From: Alphaproteobacteria bacterium WMHbin7 | Lineage (GTDB): Bacteria; Pseudomonadota; Alphaproteobacteria; Rhodospirillales; WMHbin7 | Assembly (NCBI GenBank): GCA_002753155.1 | Contig: PDZW01000005.1 | Span: 1 to 64,000, forward strand | DNA length: 64,000 nt | Direction: 5' to 3' | Shown: positions 2,657 to 13,706 of the stretch, one piece after another | How positions within the stretch are numbered: position 1 is the stretch's first letter | Layout of the letters: the number at the start of each line of letters is the position of its first letter | The notes under the pieces: generated by a model | What the model saw: only the letters and a program-made list of their open reading frames with translations | What the model was told of the DNA's origin: nothing | Database searches by the model: none | Made by a program: the position numbers and the translations under genes

Positions 2657-3478
2657 CTAGAAGAGCTTCAGAATCGACTGTTCGGACTGGTTGGCCAGCG
2701 ACAGCGAGGTAATACCCAACTGTTGGCGGGTCTGCAGGGCGAGCAGGTTGGCCGATTCCTCGTTGATGTCGGCGTTGACCAGCTTGGCCGCGCCTTCTTC
2801 CAAGGTCATGACCAGGTTCTTGGTGAAGTCCAAGCGAATCTGCAGCACCGAGTTGTTCGAACCGAAGGTGCTGGCCTGTGCGCGCAGAGACTTCAAGCCG
2901 GCGTCGACCTGGGCGATGCCCGATTCGACAGTCGCCGAGTCGGTCCAGTTGGCGGCCGTAATCGTCTGCATGGTGAGGCCCGAAGCGTCGAGACGGACGC
3001 CGGAGATGGTCAGCTTGTGGCTGGCGAATTCGTCGAAGGTGACGACCAGCGAGGCGCTGGTGCCGTTGACGAGGTTCTTACCGCCGTAGCTGGCGTCATA
3101 GGCCAACTGGTTGATCGCGGTGACCAGCGTGTTGTACTGGCTGGCCAACTTGGTCTGTTGGGCGGTATCGGTGGTTGACTGGGCCGCAGTGGCAAGCGCC
3201 TTGGCCTGTTCGACCATCTTGGTGATGCTGTCGATGCCCTTGGTGGCCGATGTCAACTGGCTGATGGACTGGTCCATCGTGTTCTTGAGGTTGGCAAGGT
3301 CGGTACCGCGGTTGGACAGTCCGGCCGCCGTGAAGAAGGCCTGGGCGTTATCCAGCGAGCTGTTGACGTTCTTGCCGGTCGAGAGGCGGTTCTGAGTGCG
3401 CCCGATCAACGATGCCGTGTTCTGCAAGGACAGCAGGTTTGTGCGGATCGATGATGTAAGTGTGATGTCTGTAGCCAT
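2657..3478 (-). CDS. Flagellin
   Basis: N-terminal MATDITLTSSIRTNLLSLQNTASLIGRTQNRLSTGKNVNSSLDNA and C-terminal LALQTRQQLGITSLSLANQSEQSILKLF. Confidence 0.95.
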   Translation of the reverse strand: MATDITLTSSIRTNLLSLQNTASLIGRTQNRLSTGKNVNSSLDNAQAFFTAAGLSNRGTDLANLKNTMDQSISQLTSATKGIDSITKMVEQAKALATAAQSTTDTAQQTKLASQYNTLVTAINQLAYDASYGGKNLVNGTSASLVVTFDEFASHKLTISGVRLDASGLTMQTITAANWTDSATVESGIAQVDAGLKSLRAQASTFGSNNSVLQIRLDFTKNLVMTLEEGAAKLVNADINEESANLLALQTRQQLGITSLSLANQSEQSILKLF

Positions 3479-3770: not shown

Positions 3771-5246
3771 TTAAATATAGTCGGCCAGGCTGAGCTGCTG
3801 AATTCGGCCAAAGGCCGTATAGGAAACTTCCAGTGCGTTTTGCTGACTGGTGAGCAGGGTAACGATCTCAGTCTTCTCGATGTTTTCCAAGTCCGACAGG
3901 CGCGATTCCGAAGTGGCCTTGAAGTTGCTCTGCAGGTCGATCGCCCGCTGAATCGAGGTGACATGGGTTTCGATGGTGTATTGCATGGTCAGCAGATCAC
4001 TGTCCAACTCGCTCGAGGACGGATCGTGCTGAATCGAATCATTCACCAACTGGATGACATCGCCGATCAGCGTGGGATTGGAGGTTTCCACCTGGCTCAT
4101 ATTGCCCTGGGACATGATGAGCATGGCCCGCATGAGCTTCTCGATGGCCGGGTCGTTGGCGGTAATGCCCGTCGTCACCGTGCGGTTCTCGTCGATCCGA
4201 TGATCGATCTGCATATTATCGCCTTTGTAGTAATAGTTCGTTCCCAAGGCGACATGGCCGGAACGCGTGGTGGGAAACTGGCTTTGCGGCCTGATCATGA
4301 CGCCTGGCGTGGCGACTTCCGTGACAGGAGCCGCTGTCAGGGTCAGAATCGTATTCGTTCCGTCGATCGAAGCGATGGTGTAGGCGGTGTTGTTCGAGTT
4401 CGTGCCTGAGAAGGTAACCCTGTCCCCCGCCGAATAGCCTGAGAAAGCCCCGGCATTGGCCGCCGTGATCGTGCTGCCGGCACTGCTGAAGGTGAGGTTG
4501 CCGGTGTTGGCTGCCGGAGGCGGCTGCATCGTAGCCCCGCTCGACGCCACTTCGTTGACCGGAGCCGTGGTCAGGGTCAGGATGGTCTTCGTGGCGTCGA
4601 TCGAGGCGACAGTATAGGTGGCGTCGTTCGAGGCCGTGCCCGAGATCAAAATCGAATCGCCGGCGGCGATGCCTGTGAAGGTGCCCGCATTGGCCGCAGT
4701 GATGGTGCTGGCGGCGTTGTCGAAAGTAAGCTGCCCCGTGATCGAGGAGACGGTGGCCTGCTTGTAGGAGGACTGGTATTGCGTCAGCGATCCCCAGGTG
4801 ATGTCCACGGGCTTGGTATTGGTCTTGCCACCGGAGAAGATGAAGTTGCCGTTCATCTTCTCGTTCATGAGTGACTGAATCTCGGTCAAATGCGTCCAGG
4901 ACAATTGCTGAACCAAGCCCAGTGCATCGGGATCATCCGCCCCCTTGGACAGGAAGGCGCCAAGTTCCGTACGGTACCTGCCCGCGATGTCCATGACGGT
5001 CTTTAGCGAATCCGACATGATCTTCAGCTTGGTCTTTTGAGTCGTGTTGGTACCGATAAGCCGGACAGTCTGGTCGTGCTGGTTTTCCAAAGAAACCAGA
5101 TTGAAGGAATCGCGGGAGATGCCGGCGTAATTCTGCGACTTCTTCTCGGTGTTGAGCATCGTGTTGAGATCTTGAAGACGCTTCTGCGAGTTCAGAAGCT
5201 GCGACAGCAGCATGTTGTCCGATGCAAGACTTCCTACGCGAGACAT
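3771..5246 (-). CDS. flgL: Flagellar hook-associated protein FlgL / flagellin-like, with tandem internal repeats
   Basis: N- and C-terminal flagellin-like D0/D1 regions, immediately downstream of flgK. Confidence 0.8.
   Translation of the reverse strand: MSRVGSLASDNMLLSQLLNSQKRLQDLNTMLNTEKKSQNYAGISRDSFNLVSLENQHDQTVRLIGTNTTQKTKLKIMSDSLKTVMDIAGRYRTELGAFLSKGADDPDALGLVQQLSWTHLTEIQSLMNEKMNGNFIFSGGKTNTKPVDITWGSLTQYQSSYKQATVSSITGQLTFDNAASTITAANAGTFTGIAAGDSILISGTASNDATYTVASIDATKTILTLTTAPVNEVASSGATMQPPPAANTGNLTFSSAGSTITAANAGAFSGYSAGDRVTFSGTNSNNTAYTIASIDGTNTILTLTAAPVTEVATPGVMIRPQSQFPTTRSGHVALGTNYYYKGDNMQIDHRIDENRTVTTGITANDPAIEKLMRAMLIMSQGNMSQVETSNPTLIGDVIQLVNDSIQHDPSSSELDSDLLTMQYTIETHVTSIQRAIDLQSNFKATSESRLSDLENIEKTEIVTLLTSQQNALEVSYTAFGRIQQLSLADYI
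4287..4739 (-). repeat. Two tandem about 78-aa repeats inside FlgL
   Basis: TGQLTFDNAASTITAANAGTFTGIAAGDSILISGTASNDATYTVASIDATKTILTLTTAPVNEVAS versus TGNLTFSSAGSTITAANAGAFSGYSAGDRVTFSGTNSNNTAYTIASIDGTNTILTLTAAPVTEVAT. Confidence 0.9.
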
Positions 5247-10606: not shown

Positions 10607-11023
10607 ATGAACGTCACGCTGCCGCCCGACTATCGACCCACGGAAAAAGAGCCGTTCATGAACGAACGGATGCGCGAATATTTTCGCCAAAAGCTGATCC
10701 GCTGGCGTCACGAGTTGCTGGAAGAATCGAATGAAACGCTGATGCATCTGCAAGAAGGCGGATTGCAGGAGCCCGATATTGCCGACCGCGCCTCGGCCGA
10801 GACCGACCGCGCCCTGGAACTGCGCACCCGTGACCGGGCACGCAAGCTGATCTCCAAAATCGATGCCGCCATGAAGCGAATCGATGACGGAAGCTATGGT
10901 TACTGCGAGGAGACGGGCGAGCCGATCGGCATTCGCCGCCTGGAAGCCCGCCCAATCGCCACCCTGTCGATCGAGGCTCAGGAACGCCACGAGCGCATGG
11001 AGCGCACCCATCGCGAGGATTAG
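10607..11023 (+). CDS. dksA: DksA/TraR-family RNA polymerase-binding protein
   Basis: MREYFRQKLIRWRHELLEES...ADRASAETDRALELRTRDRARKLISKIDAAMKRIDDGSYGYCEETGEPIGIRRLEARPIATLSIEAQERHE. Confidence 0.93.
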   Translation: MNVTLPPDYRPTEKEPFMNERMREYFRQKLIRWRHELLEESNETLMHLQEGGLQEPDIADRASAETDRALELRTRDRARKLISKIDAAMKRIDDGSYGYCEETGEPIGIRRLEARPIATLSIEAQERHERMERTHRED

Positions 11024-11045
11024 GGCGCAAGCTCATAAATGAAAA

Positions 11046-11075
11046 GGGCCGGGGAAATCCCCGGCCCTTTGTCTT
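11046..11075 (+). terminator. Rho-independent terminator after dksA
   Basis: GGGCCGGGG-AAAT-CCCCGGCCC followed by TTTGTCTTT. Confidence 0.85.
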
Positions 11076-11094: not shown

Positions 11095-11799
11095 CTATTT
11101 CTTCTTCTTGACGGGAGCCTTGGCGGCAGGCTTCTTGGCCGGAGCAGCCGCCTTTTTGGCCGGCGCCACGACTGGCTTTTTGGCCGGTGCAGCTGCCTTC
11201 TTGGCAGGGGCTGCGGCCTTGGCGGCAGGTTTCTTAGCCGGGGCTGGTGCCGCAGCCTTCTTGGCCGGAGCCTTGGCCTGAACCTTCTTATGCGCCTTGA
11301 TCGGGTCCGAACCCATGATCTTGGCGAATTCCTTGAGCGCGTTGGCATAGTCGGCGGCCTGCGTGATCTCATACTCGGCCTTCAGCCAGTGATCAAGATC
11401 GCGCCCCGGCGGGCAACCCGCCTTTTCCCACATCTTATAGGCCAGTTCGCGGATGCGGTGTCCGGTCGTCCCCTCCAAAAGTCCCTCGGCGATCTGCAGA
11501 TTGAGGTTGATCAGACTGTCCAGAATGTCGTCGGTCACGCCATTGGCCACCTCGAAGGTTTTCTGAGCGGCAAATTGCGACAGCTTGATCAGATTGTTGC
11601 GGATGTCCTTGGGCAACTGGCATTCGGGCCGCTGCATCAGGGTGCGGATGGCCACCCAAAGCTGAAGGTTGCTGTCCAGGGCGCTTGTCAGATCCGCCCC
11701 GCCCTTCTTGCGGGCGGTTGCGATCTGAACGGCAGAGCGGGCCAAGGCCAGCGCATCCTCTTCACCACGGGACAGACTGTCGATCTCAATCTTGGCCAT
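11095..11799 (-). CDS. FlaF-like flagellar regulator fused to DUF2934 and a histone-H1-like Lys/Ala/Pro tail
   Basis: FlaF-like core (TSALDSNLQLWVAIRTLM..LPKDIRNNLIKLSQFAAQKTFEV..LINLNLQIAEGL), DUF2934 motif (IRELAYKMWEKAGCPPGRDLDHWLKAEYEI), then PAKKAAAPAKK repeats. Start set at the ATG with RBS GGGAG. Confidence 0.7.
   Translation of the reverse strand: MAKIEIDSLSRGEEDALALARSAVQIATARKKGGADLTSALDSNLQLWVAIRTLMQRPECQLPKDIRNNLIKLSQFAAQKTFEVANGVTDDILDSLINLNLQIAEGLLEGTTGHRIRELAYKMWEKAGCPPGRDLDHWLKAEYEITQAADYANALKEFAKIMGSDPIKAHKKVQAKAPAKKAAAPAPAKKPAAKAAAPAKKAAAPAKKPVVAPAKKAAAPAKKPAAKAPVKKKK
11098..11298 (-). repeat. Low-complexity AAPAKK repeat tail coding region
   Basis: 67-aa tail KAHKKVQAKAPAKKAAAPAPAKKPAAKAAAPAKK...VKKKK. 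Confidence 0.9.
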
Positions 11800-11911
11800 C
11801 TCTTGATCTCCCAAAAAGTGCTGTTGCGTCAAAGATACCCCGGACGAGAAACTCTAGACTATCAAGATTCCAGGGGCTTGTGAATTATGAATGACTCTGG
11901 TGATACGGCTG

Positions 11912-11959: not shown

Positions 11960-12709
11960 TCAGAAGGGGAAGAGAATATCGAACAACTGCTGGCCGTAGC
12001 GCGGCTGTTGCAGGTCCGACAGGGTGCCCCGCCCGCCATAGGTGATACGTGCCTCGGCGATCTTCTCGTAGGTGATCGAGTTGGTCGAATCGATGTCCGA
12101 AGGCCGGATGATGCCGGAAACAGTCAATTCGCGCATCTCGTTGTTGACCCGAATTTCCTGCTTGCCCGCCAGCACCAGATTGCCATTCGGCAAGACTTGA
12201 ATGATCACGGCAGCCATAGTGACGCTGATTTCTTCCTTGCGGTCGATCTTGCCGTCGCCGGTGACGGCGTGGGTGCTGCCCATGGCCCCCAGATTGGCCG
12301 CATTGGCCGCCGAGGGGAACAAGCGGCTCAACTGGGTTTCGTAGCCCAGAAGCGTCAGGGCATCCGTGGTTTCGTTATTATCGCGGGCTTCCGTGGTCTT
12401 GTTGTTCAGCGTCCCCTTGTCCGAGATGCTGACCTTGACGGTCAGGATGTCGCCGACTTCGCCTGCGCGATTATCCTTGAAGAAGGCCCTGGCTCCCGGA
12501 CGCCACAGAGAATTTGGATTCGTGCTGGTCGTCTTGGGGGCGGGCATGGGCAGGCTGACCGGACGGTAAAGCGGATTTTGCGTCGGATCGGTGATCTTCG
12601 AGGTCTTGGGCGATTCGCCCACCTCGCTTAAGCGATTGATCGCGTTGCAGCCCGAAAGTGCTAGGCCTGCCGCAGCCAGAAGGAGCGATGTTCTGAACGT
12701 GTTTTTCAT
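11960..12709 (-). CDS. flgH: Flagellar L-ring lipoprotein FlgH
   Basis: MKNTFRTSLLLAAAGLALSGCNAINRLSEVG (lipobox LSGC); GDILTVKVSISDKGTLNNKT; IRPSDIDSTNSITYEKIAEARITYGGRG. Confidence 0.95.
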   Translation of the reverse strand: MKNTFRTSLLLAAAGLALSGCNAINRLSEVGESPKTSKITDPTQNPLYRPVSLPMPAPKTTSTNPNSLWRPGARAFFKDNRAGEVGDILTVKVSISDKGTLNNKTTEARDNNETTDALTLLGYETQLSRLFPSAANAANLGAMGSTHAVTGDGKIDRKEEISVTMAAVIIQVLPNGNLVLAGKQEIRVNNEMRELTVSGIIRPSDIDSTNSITYEKIAEARITYGGRGTLSDLQQPRYGQQLFDILFPF

Positions 12710-12725
12710 AATGTCCTCCAAGCTT

Positions 12726-13706
12726 TCAATTGACCTGACGCGCCCCTTGCGGGCGAACCGAAACGACGCCCTGGCTGATGACCGTGGCTTCCACGACATT
12801 CCGGCTTTGGGCGTTGGTGACGTGAATGACGTCGCCTTCCGATCCATCCTCGTTGGCGCGGCCCTGGGCGGTCAGCGTCATGGCGCTGTTGCGCACGATC
12901 ATGGTGACGGTGCTGTTCTTGGGCACCATGATGGGACGCTGAATGTCTTGCTTGCTGACCATCTGGCCGACCTTCAGCAGGCGCCTGGGCGCCTTGCCCA
13001 CGATCTGGGAAATCTCGGTCAATGTATCGGCGCGCACGGCGTCGGCGCTGATCTGCACGAATTTGAGGTCGTCGGCTGAAATCGGCTCGTTCTGGGCGAT
13101 GCTGCGGGCCAGAACGGGAATGCCGACCTGTGTCACAACGCGCCCGCTGACCTTGGCCATCAGCGCATTCGGAACGCCCGCCGGGGTTTCCAGCGTCGCC
13201 GTGAAGCGGCGCGAACGCTCGTCATAGGCCAGTGCGCGCACGGCCACAGTCGGCTTGACCTCGACGGGAATGACCAGGGCAATCGAGCGATTGGCCAGTT
13301 CGATTGCCGAATCCGCAGCGATTCCATAGGGGGCCAGGGCGGAAAGCAGCGCGTTCTCGATCGTCTCGCGGCCCACGGTCTGCCCGGCGCGCTCGACCAC
13401 GATGCGGTCATACTGCGAGGCCGGACGCCAGTTGACGCCTTGCGATTTTGCCATGGCGTAGAGCCAGTTGACATCGAGCGTTGACCTGGTTCCGGGCTTA
13501 GGCGCGTAGGCGATGGGCTTTTTGGCCCGGGCGTCATCGAGATTGTCGAAAAGATCGCCCAACATCACCACGTCGCCTTCGACCAGGGCTTGGTCTTTCA
13601 AGGCCACCGGCGGCGACAACAGGGCCAGCTTGGCATCCTCGGCCTTGGCGGAAGCCACAGCCAGCAGAAGCGCTGAACCCAGAAAAAGGATACGAAGGCT
13701 AAACAT
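12726..13706 (-). CDS. flgA: Flagellar P-ring assembly chaperone FlgA
   Basis: ARSIAQNEPISADDLKFVQI...GKAPRRLLKVGQMVSKQDIQRPIMVPKNSTVTMIV (SAF domain), adjacent to flgG and flgH. Confidence 0.92.
   Translation of the reverse strand: MFSLRILFLGSALLLAVASAKAEDAKLALLSPPVALKDQALVEGDVVMLGDLFDNLDDARAKKPIAYAPKPGTRSTLDVNWLYAMAKSQGVNWRPASQYDRIVVERAGQTVGRETIENALLSALAPYGIAADSAIELANRSIALVIPVEVKPTVAVRALAYDERSRRFTATLETPAGVPNALMAKVSGRVVTQVGIPVLARSIAQNEPISADDLKFVQISADAVRADTLTEISQIVGKAPRRLLKVGQMVSKQDIQRPIMVPKNSTVTMIVRNSAMTLTAQGRANEDGSEGDVIHVTNAQSRNVVEATVISQGVVSVRPQGARQVN

Follow-up and report, generated by a model that had tools for sequence, protein, structure and literature searches.

A FlaF-DUF2934 fusion protein with a basic Lys/Ala/Pro-rich tail encoded within a flagellar gene cluster of Rhodospirillales

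The window analyzed here, a stretch of 64,000 nucleotides from the draft genome of Alphaproteobacteria bacterium WMHbin7 (73 contigs, 87% complete), contains a flagellar gene cluster in which flgF-flgG-flgA-flgH are followed, on the same strand, by a gene coding for a fusion protein of three modules (11095..11799, minus strand; 234 aa, ATG start). This gene is preceded by a GGGAG Shine-Dalgarno-like sequence, contains no internal stop codons and is separated by 160 bp from flgH (11960..12847, minus strand), which lies directly upstream. An intrinsic terminator-like hairpin (11043..11070, minus strand), found in relatives too, is located directly 3' of its stop codon, and a dksA/traR-like gene (10607..11023, plus strand) is convergent with it. 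Beyond dksA/traR lie fliX and then the genes flgI-flgJ-flgN-flgK-flgL-flagellin; the products named FlgI, FlgK, FlgF and FlgG are what we take them to be from reading their sequences. Two proteins encoded here could be clients of the fusion protein: flagellin (2657..3478, minus strand), which is the sole Flagellin_N match found in the 87%-complete genome, and a FlgL-like hook-filament junction protein (3771..5246, minus strand). The latter, with 491 aa, is longer than usual and contains the repeated segment ITAANAGxFxGxxAGDxxxxSGT.

The N-terminal part of the fusion protein (residues 12-107; 11479..11766, minus strand) is a FlaF domain, matching Pfam profile PF07309 with 60.4 bits (cut-off 23.6; E = 2e-16) over profile positions 16-113 of 113. 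It is followed by a DUF2934 domain (residues 114-145; 11365..11460, minus strand) matching PF11154 with 52.6 bits (cut-off 22; E = 3.5e-14; positions 4-35 of 37), and by a histone-H1-like tail of the PAKKA type, rich in lysine, alanine and proline (K/A/P; 11098..11298, minus strand; about 67 aa, approximately residues 169-234). A previous sequence-only reading had proposed the combination of these three modules in one ORF, with a 67-aa tail at 11098-11298, and both proposals stood the analysis, the gene being intact and both Pfam profiles scoring above their cut-offs. It had also reported a DUF2934 helix-motif string, which is indeed present and spans 11365-11454; the end coordinate given for it, 11463, was 9 nt too long. 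A phasin identity of the N-terminal domain was discarded, as no phasin profile matched anywhere in the fusion protein by Pfam and FlaF was matched instead.

The draft state of the window genome would favor an artefact, in which a frameshift or an assembly error had joined separate genes. The complete architecture, however, occurs in a single frame in four relatives (G001-G003, which belong to the same genus, and G004, from the same family), which are 73-87% identical to the window protein and share with it the gene order flgA-flgH-fusion. One of the three same-genus sequences is a contig of LM-1 (Rhodospirillaceae bacterium LM-1), a magnetotactic bacterium also designated Ca. Magneticavibrio boulderlitore (PMC12724286). 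Moreover, synonymous changes greatly exceed non-synonymous ones (pS >> pN) in the FlaF, DUF2934 and tail segments and, though less clearly, also exceed them in the 22-residue linker, and pN/pS is low across all module junctions. The artefact raised as a possible refutation of the fusion can therefore be dismissed as extremely improbable. An origin of the gene from phages or viruses was also rejected, since no relative was present in viral contigs with close-relative patterns or in phage records. The rarity that had been ascribed to the three-module architecture was supported, and no paper describing it was found in the literature searched, which mostly did not extend to subscription journals. 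We conclude that the fusion protein is unusual but assembled from known modules.

The tail (residues 169-234, 66 aa; 11098..11295, minus strand) consists of K, A and P to 91%, with 21 lysines, no aspartate or glutamate and a net charge of +21. It is the sole place in the six frames of the 64-kb window where K+A+P reaches at least 0.75 over 66 aa. This uniqueness, together with the presence of all modules in the four relatives and the excess of synonymous changes, rules out an explanation by chance. Its composition has been retained in the window's family while synonymous sites change: between LM-1 and G001, tail pS was 0.47 and pN 0.008, a pN that is probably underestimated because the low-complexity alignment is ambiguous and favors matches. 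Stand-alone DUF2934 proteins, too, are in many cases made up of this domain and a K/A/P tail. DUF2934 proteins whose tails are rich in K/A/P, K/S or K/C (L110-L147 and L159-L187) are widespread in Alphaproteobacteria and Pseudomonas. The papers found to mention DUF2934 describe no function for it in their titles or abstracts. AlgP and PhaF have KPAA tails that bind DNA and presumably anchor granules to the chromosome (PMC9239181); by analogy with them, it is plausible that the tail of the fusion protein binds polyanions.

With respect to the FlaF domain, the fusion protein scored below the cut-offs of the NCBI FlaF equivalog models (NF009435, 51.6 versus 91 bits; NF009434, 24.9 versus 99 bits), indicating that it contains a divergent FlaF paralogue and not canonical FlaF. 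Canonical FlaF and FlbT are encoded by an adjacent gene pair on another contig of the same genome (C28), which agrees with the earlier remark that no flbT gene is visible in the window, and the fusion gene does not adjoin flbT. The FlaF domain of the fusion protein is approximately 33% identical to this canonical FlaF. A third FlaF of the genome, a stand-alone protein of 113 aa encoded on contig C68 next to a gene that presumably is alaS, is 68% identical to the fusion core. A phylogeny of 84 FlaF domains, which comprised only 108 columns and left many inner forks poorly supported, split the window protein, its C68 paralogue and most Rhodospirillales relatives from canonical FlaF by a branch with 99/95 support. 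The identification of the fusion as canonical FlaF was thus rejected, since the canonical gene is elsewhere and the tree places the fusion on the other branch, for which we coin the name FlaF2. This second FlaF subfamily extends across Rhodospirillales, and current annotation does not distinguish it from FlaF.

FlaF2 is usually a stand-alone protein of about 115 aa with the C-terminal end NINLQISEGLLEG, and a FlaF2 match of at least approximately 80 bits was found in 101 of the 282 genomes of the order. In at least 24 genomes, from families f1 and f18, flaF2 follows immediately after flgH, in the same orientation and within 800 bp; in other genomes it lies next to or after flgL. Since the stand-alone flaF2 of family f18 occupies the locus directly downstream of flgH, the fusion gene holds the place of stand-alone flaF2. 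In three near-complete genomes (G001, G003 and G004; 98-100% complete), the fusion was the sole FlaF2 copy found, and it would therefore have to perform there whatever FlaF2 does. Family f29 (G032, G050 and G242-G268), by contrast, comprises 29 genomes with FlgH and without a strong FlaF2 among the matches listed, which indicates that FlaF2 is dispensable for some flagella of the order. Two further observations were made during this survey. A contig-end ORF (L106, 2-511) apparently contains tandem FlaF2-FlaF2 domains, and FlaF2 of the Rhodospirillales type occurs on metagenome-assembled contigs labelled Binatia, Asaia or Acidobacteria (L080, L094 and L109), which are probably misbinned or mislabelled.

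Upstream of the fusion gene, a 30-bp element, TTCACAAGCCCCTGGAATCTTGATAGTCTA (11855..11884, minus strand), is conserved ahead of all five window-type fusions, and a diverged form of it precedes the C68 paralogue (28116-28139 of C68). With a -35 TTCACA, a 17-bp spacer and TGA-TAGTCT, it resembles a sigma70-type promoter of the extended -10 class; a stricter promoter-scan pattern did not list it. Bases of the spacer are conserved between the elements of the two paralogues, and the element was absent from the other FlaF2 genes checked. A reduced pattern matched without mismatches at these two sites alone in the whole genome, a result that, the pattern having been derived from the same sites, shows only the absence of a third copy. 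With up to two mismatches four matches were obtained, as many as in the reversed control, and a broader regulon was rejected. As the element is common to both paralogues, the fusion and the C68 gene probably share control by descent.

The taxonomic spread of the architecture was then considered beyond the four relatives. Other FlaF-DUF2934 fusions were found in Azospirillum and in family f14 (G017 and G039), and genomes of the Magnetospirillum type contain a divergent form. The basic tail differs among them: the window's family has a long one at the C-terminus, f14 carries it at the N-terminus, Azospirillum has a short N-terminal one and the Magnetospirillum type has none. The Azospirillum proteins are annotated solely as 'DUF2934 domain-containing protein'; FlaF and DUF2934 lie together in one protein, as Pfam showed for the A. 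picis homologue. An N-tailed DUF2934 protein of G129 (L151) scored 30 bits with a custom FlaF profile, FlaF not being called in it by Pfam. The Magnetospirillum type has two adjacent FlaF-DUF2934 genes (L194, 7810-8265 and 8407-8835; L196, 8622-9107), the DUF2934 of the second being degenerate. Mapping the fused state on the FlaF tree required six changes, of which three are imposed by branches with good support, in a parsimony count that cannot tell gains from losses. A single ancient fusion was rejected by the AU test, on a tree with long branches (p = 3.5e-6 for one clade of all 27 fused rows); the window-type and f14-type rows as one clade, a grouping chosen after the tree had been seen, gave p = 0.010. 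Comparison of these sequences thus indicates more than one origin of the FlaF-DUF2934 fusion among these related bacteria. Since stand-alone DUF2934 is often accompanied by a K/A/P tail, we infer that its simplest origin would be the joining of flaF2 to a gene of this kind.

None of the fusions examined from other lineages was near the flagellar genes searched for; the f14 fusion with an N-terminal basic tail (L201, 8090-8653), for instance, lies between genes that we take, from reading them, to be queF-like and tgt-like. This location of the Azospirillum, f14 and Magnetospirillum-type fusions would fit a fused FlaF domain that has left flagellar work for a nucleoid- or granule-associated role, as in AlgP and PhaF. 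Such a role is quite unlikely for the window protein, whose gene lies inside the flagellar cluster in its family, is the sole FlaF2 gene in the three near-complete genomes and encodes a FlaF core 68% identical to stand-alone FlaF2. At the other extreme, the protein might be an ordinary FlaF2 export chaperone, with DUF2934 and the tail merely stabilizing or solubilizing it or adding a protein-protein contact. The stand-alone FlaF2 at the same f18 locus, showing that FlaF2 works without the extension, and the existence of FlaF-DUF2934 fusions without a tail speak for this possibility, but the basic segment recurs, N-terminally, in another clade and the composition of the tail is conserved in the window's family, so that we regard it as rather unlikely.

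The fold of the protein was examined in two AlphaFold models. The fusion, modelled with its relatives, was predicted to be all-helical (pLDDT 84), with the last FlaF helix running continuously into DUF2934 (helix 90-126); a second model was built from stand-alone FlaF2 proteins only (pLDDT 89). The two are not fully independent, as their alignments share relatives. In Foldseek searches against the PDB, the fusion model placed the flagellin export chaperone FliS at ranks 1, 2 and 4, and the second model gave FliS ranks 1-5 and 12 of the top 22. TM scores reached up to 0.74 and probabilities were 0.95-1.00, with best E-values of 0.03-0.3, which are not significant alone. Proteins of similar topology, namely designed cytokine mimetics and hemerythrins, matched as well. 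Given the weak E-values and the promiscuous matching of four-helix bundles, the predicted FliS-like fold of FlaF2 is suggestive only. No solved structure related by sequence was found, and Pfam detected no FliS (PF02561) in the fusion protein or in the window genome. Of 20 genomes examined for FliS, 19, among them the window genome, gave no match; the remaining one, G013 (L192 and L193), has two FliS matches besides FlaF2. The models would thus propose a FliS-like fold for FlaF2 in a group mostly without FliS.

Caulobacter FlaF is a flagellin secretion chaperone and not an RNA binder: it binds flagellin and promotes its export, and the feedback on flagellin level runs through FlbT-FljJ (PMC7591256). 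The link of FlaF to post-transcriptional control, assumed in the sequence-only reading, should therefore be reassigned to FlbT. Our leading explanation, which we hold tentatively and at somewhat short of even chances, is that the fusion is a FliS-like chaperone for flagellin or FlgL with a polyanion tether mounted on DUF2934. The FlaF2 domain, as a predicted four-helix bundle, would hold new flagellin (or FlgL) for export, and its last helix, continuing into DUF2934, would allow the latter to position the disordered basic tail. The tail would bind nucleic acid, most likely nucleoid DNA and possibly mRNA or polyphosphate, and could either keep chaperone and client at a nucleic-acid surface or couple the level of free client to gene expression. 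Client binding, tail binding and regulatory outcome are all inferred. In favor of this explanation we count the two Pfam modules, the FlaF2 branch, the flgH/flgL neighborhood, the FliS ranks together with the absence of FliS, the role of FlaF in Caulobacter, the genomes with the fusion as sole FlaF2, the AlgP/PhaF tails, the conserved tail composition and the many stand-alone proteins made of DUF2934 and a K/A/P tail. Against it count the non-significant Foldseek E-values, the fusions outside flagellar clusters, the tail-less Magnetospirillum type and family f29.

A regulatory version, close to the original proposal, is an autonomous regulator in which unexported flagellin would be sensed by FlaF2, with the arm of DUF2934 and tail then repressing or activating flagellar mRNAs or genes, in analogy with FlbT and its flagellin co-repressor. 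The position of the fusion in a flagellar cluster, its basic tail and the precedent of FlbT-FljJ feedback in Caulobacter (PMC7591256) are consistent with it; yet the genome already has FlbT, Caulobacter FlaF is a chaperone and no sequence specificity is known for K/A/P tails. The other fusions examined, moreover, are outside flagellar clusters, so that regulation of flagella becomes less convincing as what such fusions do in general. We consider this version improbable. We assign a similarly low likelihood to a self-contained flagellin-feedback device, in which a FliS-like FlaF2 would bind unexported flagellin, the DUF2934-basic arm would bind nucleic acid, and occupancy by the client would set both location and repression of flagellar expression; the FlaF-DUF2934 fusion itself was gained more than once, with the basic tail at either end according to lineage. 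Should the tail bind nucleic acid, flagellin handling would gain a direct link with the nucleoid or mRNA. The fusion also provides a first recurrent functional partner for the widespread and uncharacterized DUF2934-tail proteins.

In comparison with known systems, the fusion protein resembles the stand-alone DUF2934 proteins of alphaproteobacteria and Pseudomonas in the succession of DUF2934 and a basic K/A/P tail, and differs from them in its FlaF domain. It shares the presence of FlaF and DUF2934 in one protein with Azospirillum fusions such as WP_149201393.1 and WP_109331514.1, which are, however, 37-45% identical, are basic over a short N-terminal stretch where the window protein has its long tail at the C-terminus, and are encoded outside flagellar clusters. 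AlgP and PhaF also combine a helical N-terminal part with a disordered K/A/P tail (PMC9239181), which here is long, basic and acid-free, but they have other N-terminal domains, act in granule organization and lack a flagellar link, while the window protein has no phasin match. The predicted helical bundle of FlaF2 matches FliS best among PDB chains, although with non-significant Foldseek E-values, and the window protein lacks a Pfam FliS match and carries additional C-terminal modules. Finally, it belongs to the same Pfam family (PF07309) as the Caulobacter chaperone FlaF over 96 residues, and differs from it in belonging to the FlaF2 branch, in being encoded away from flbT and in carrying DUF2934 and a basic tail.
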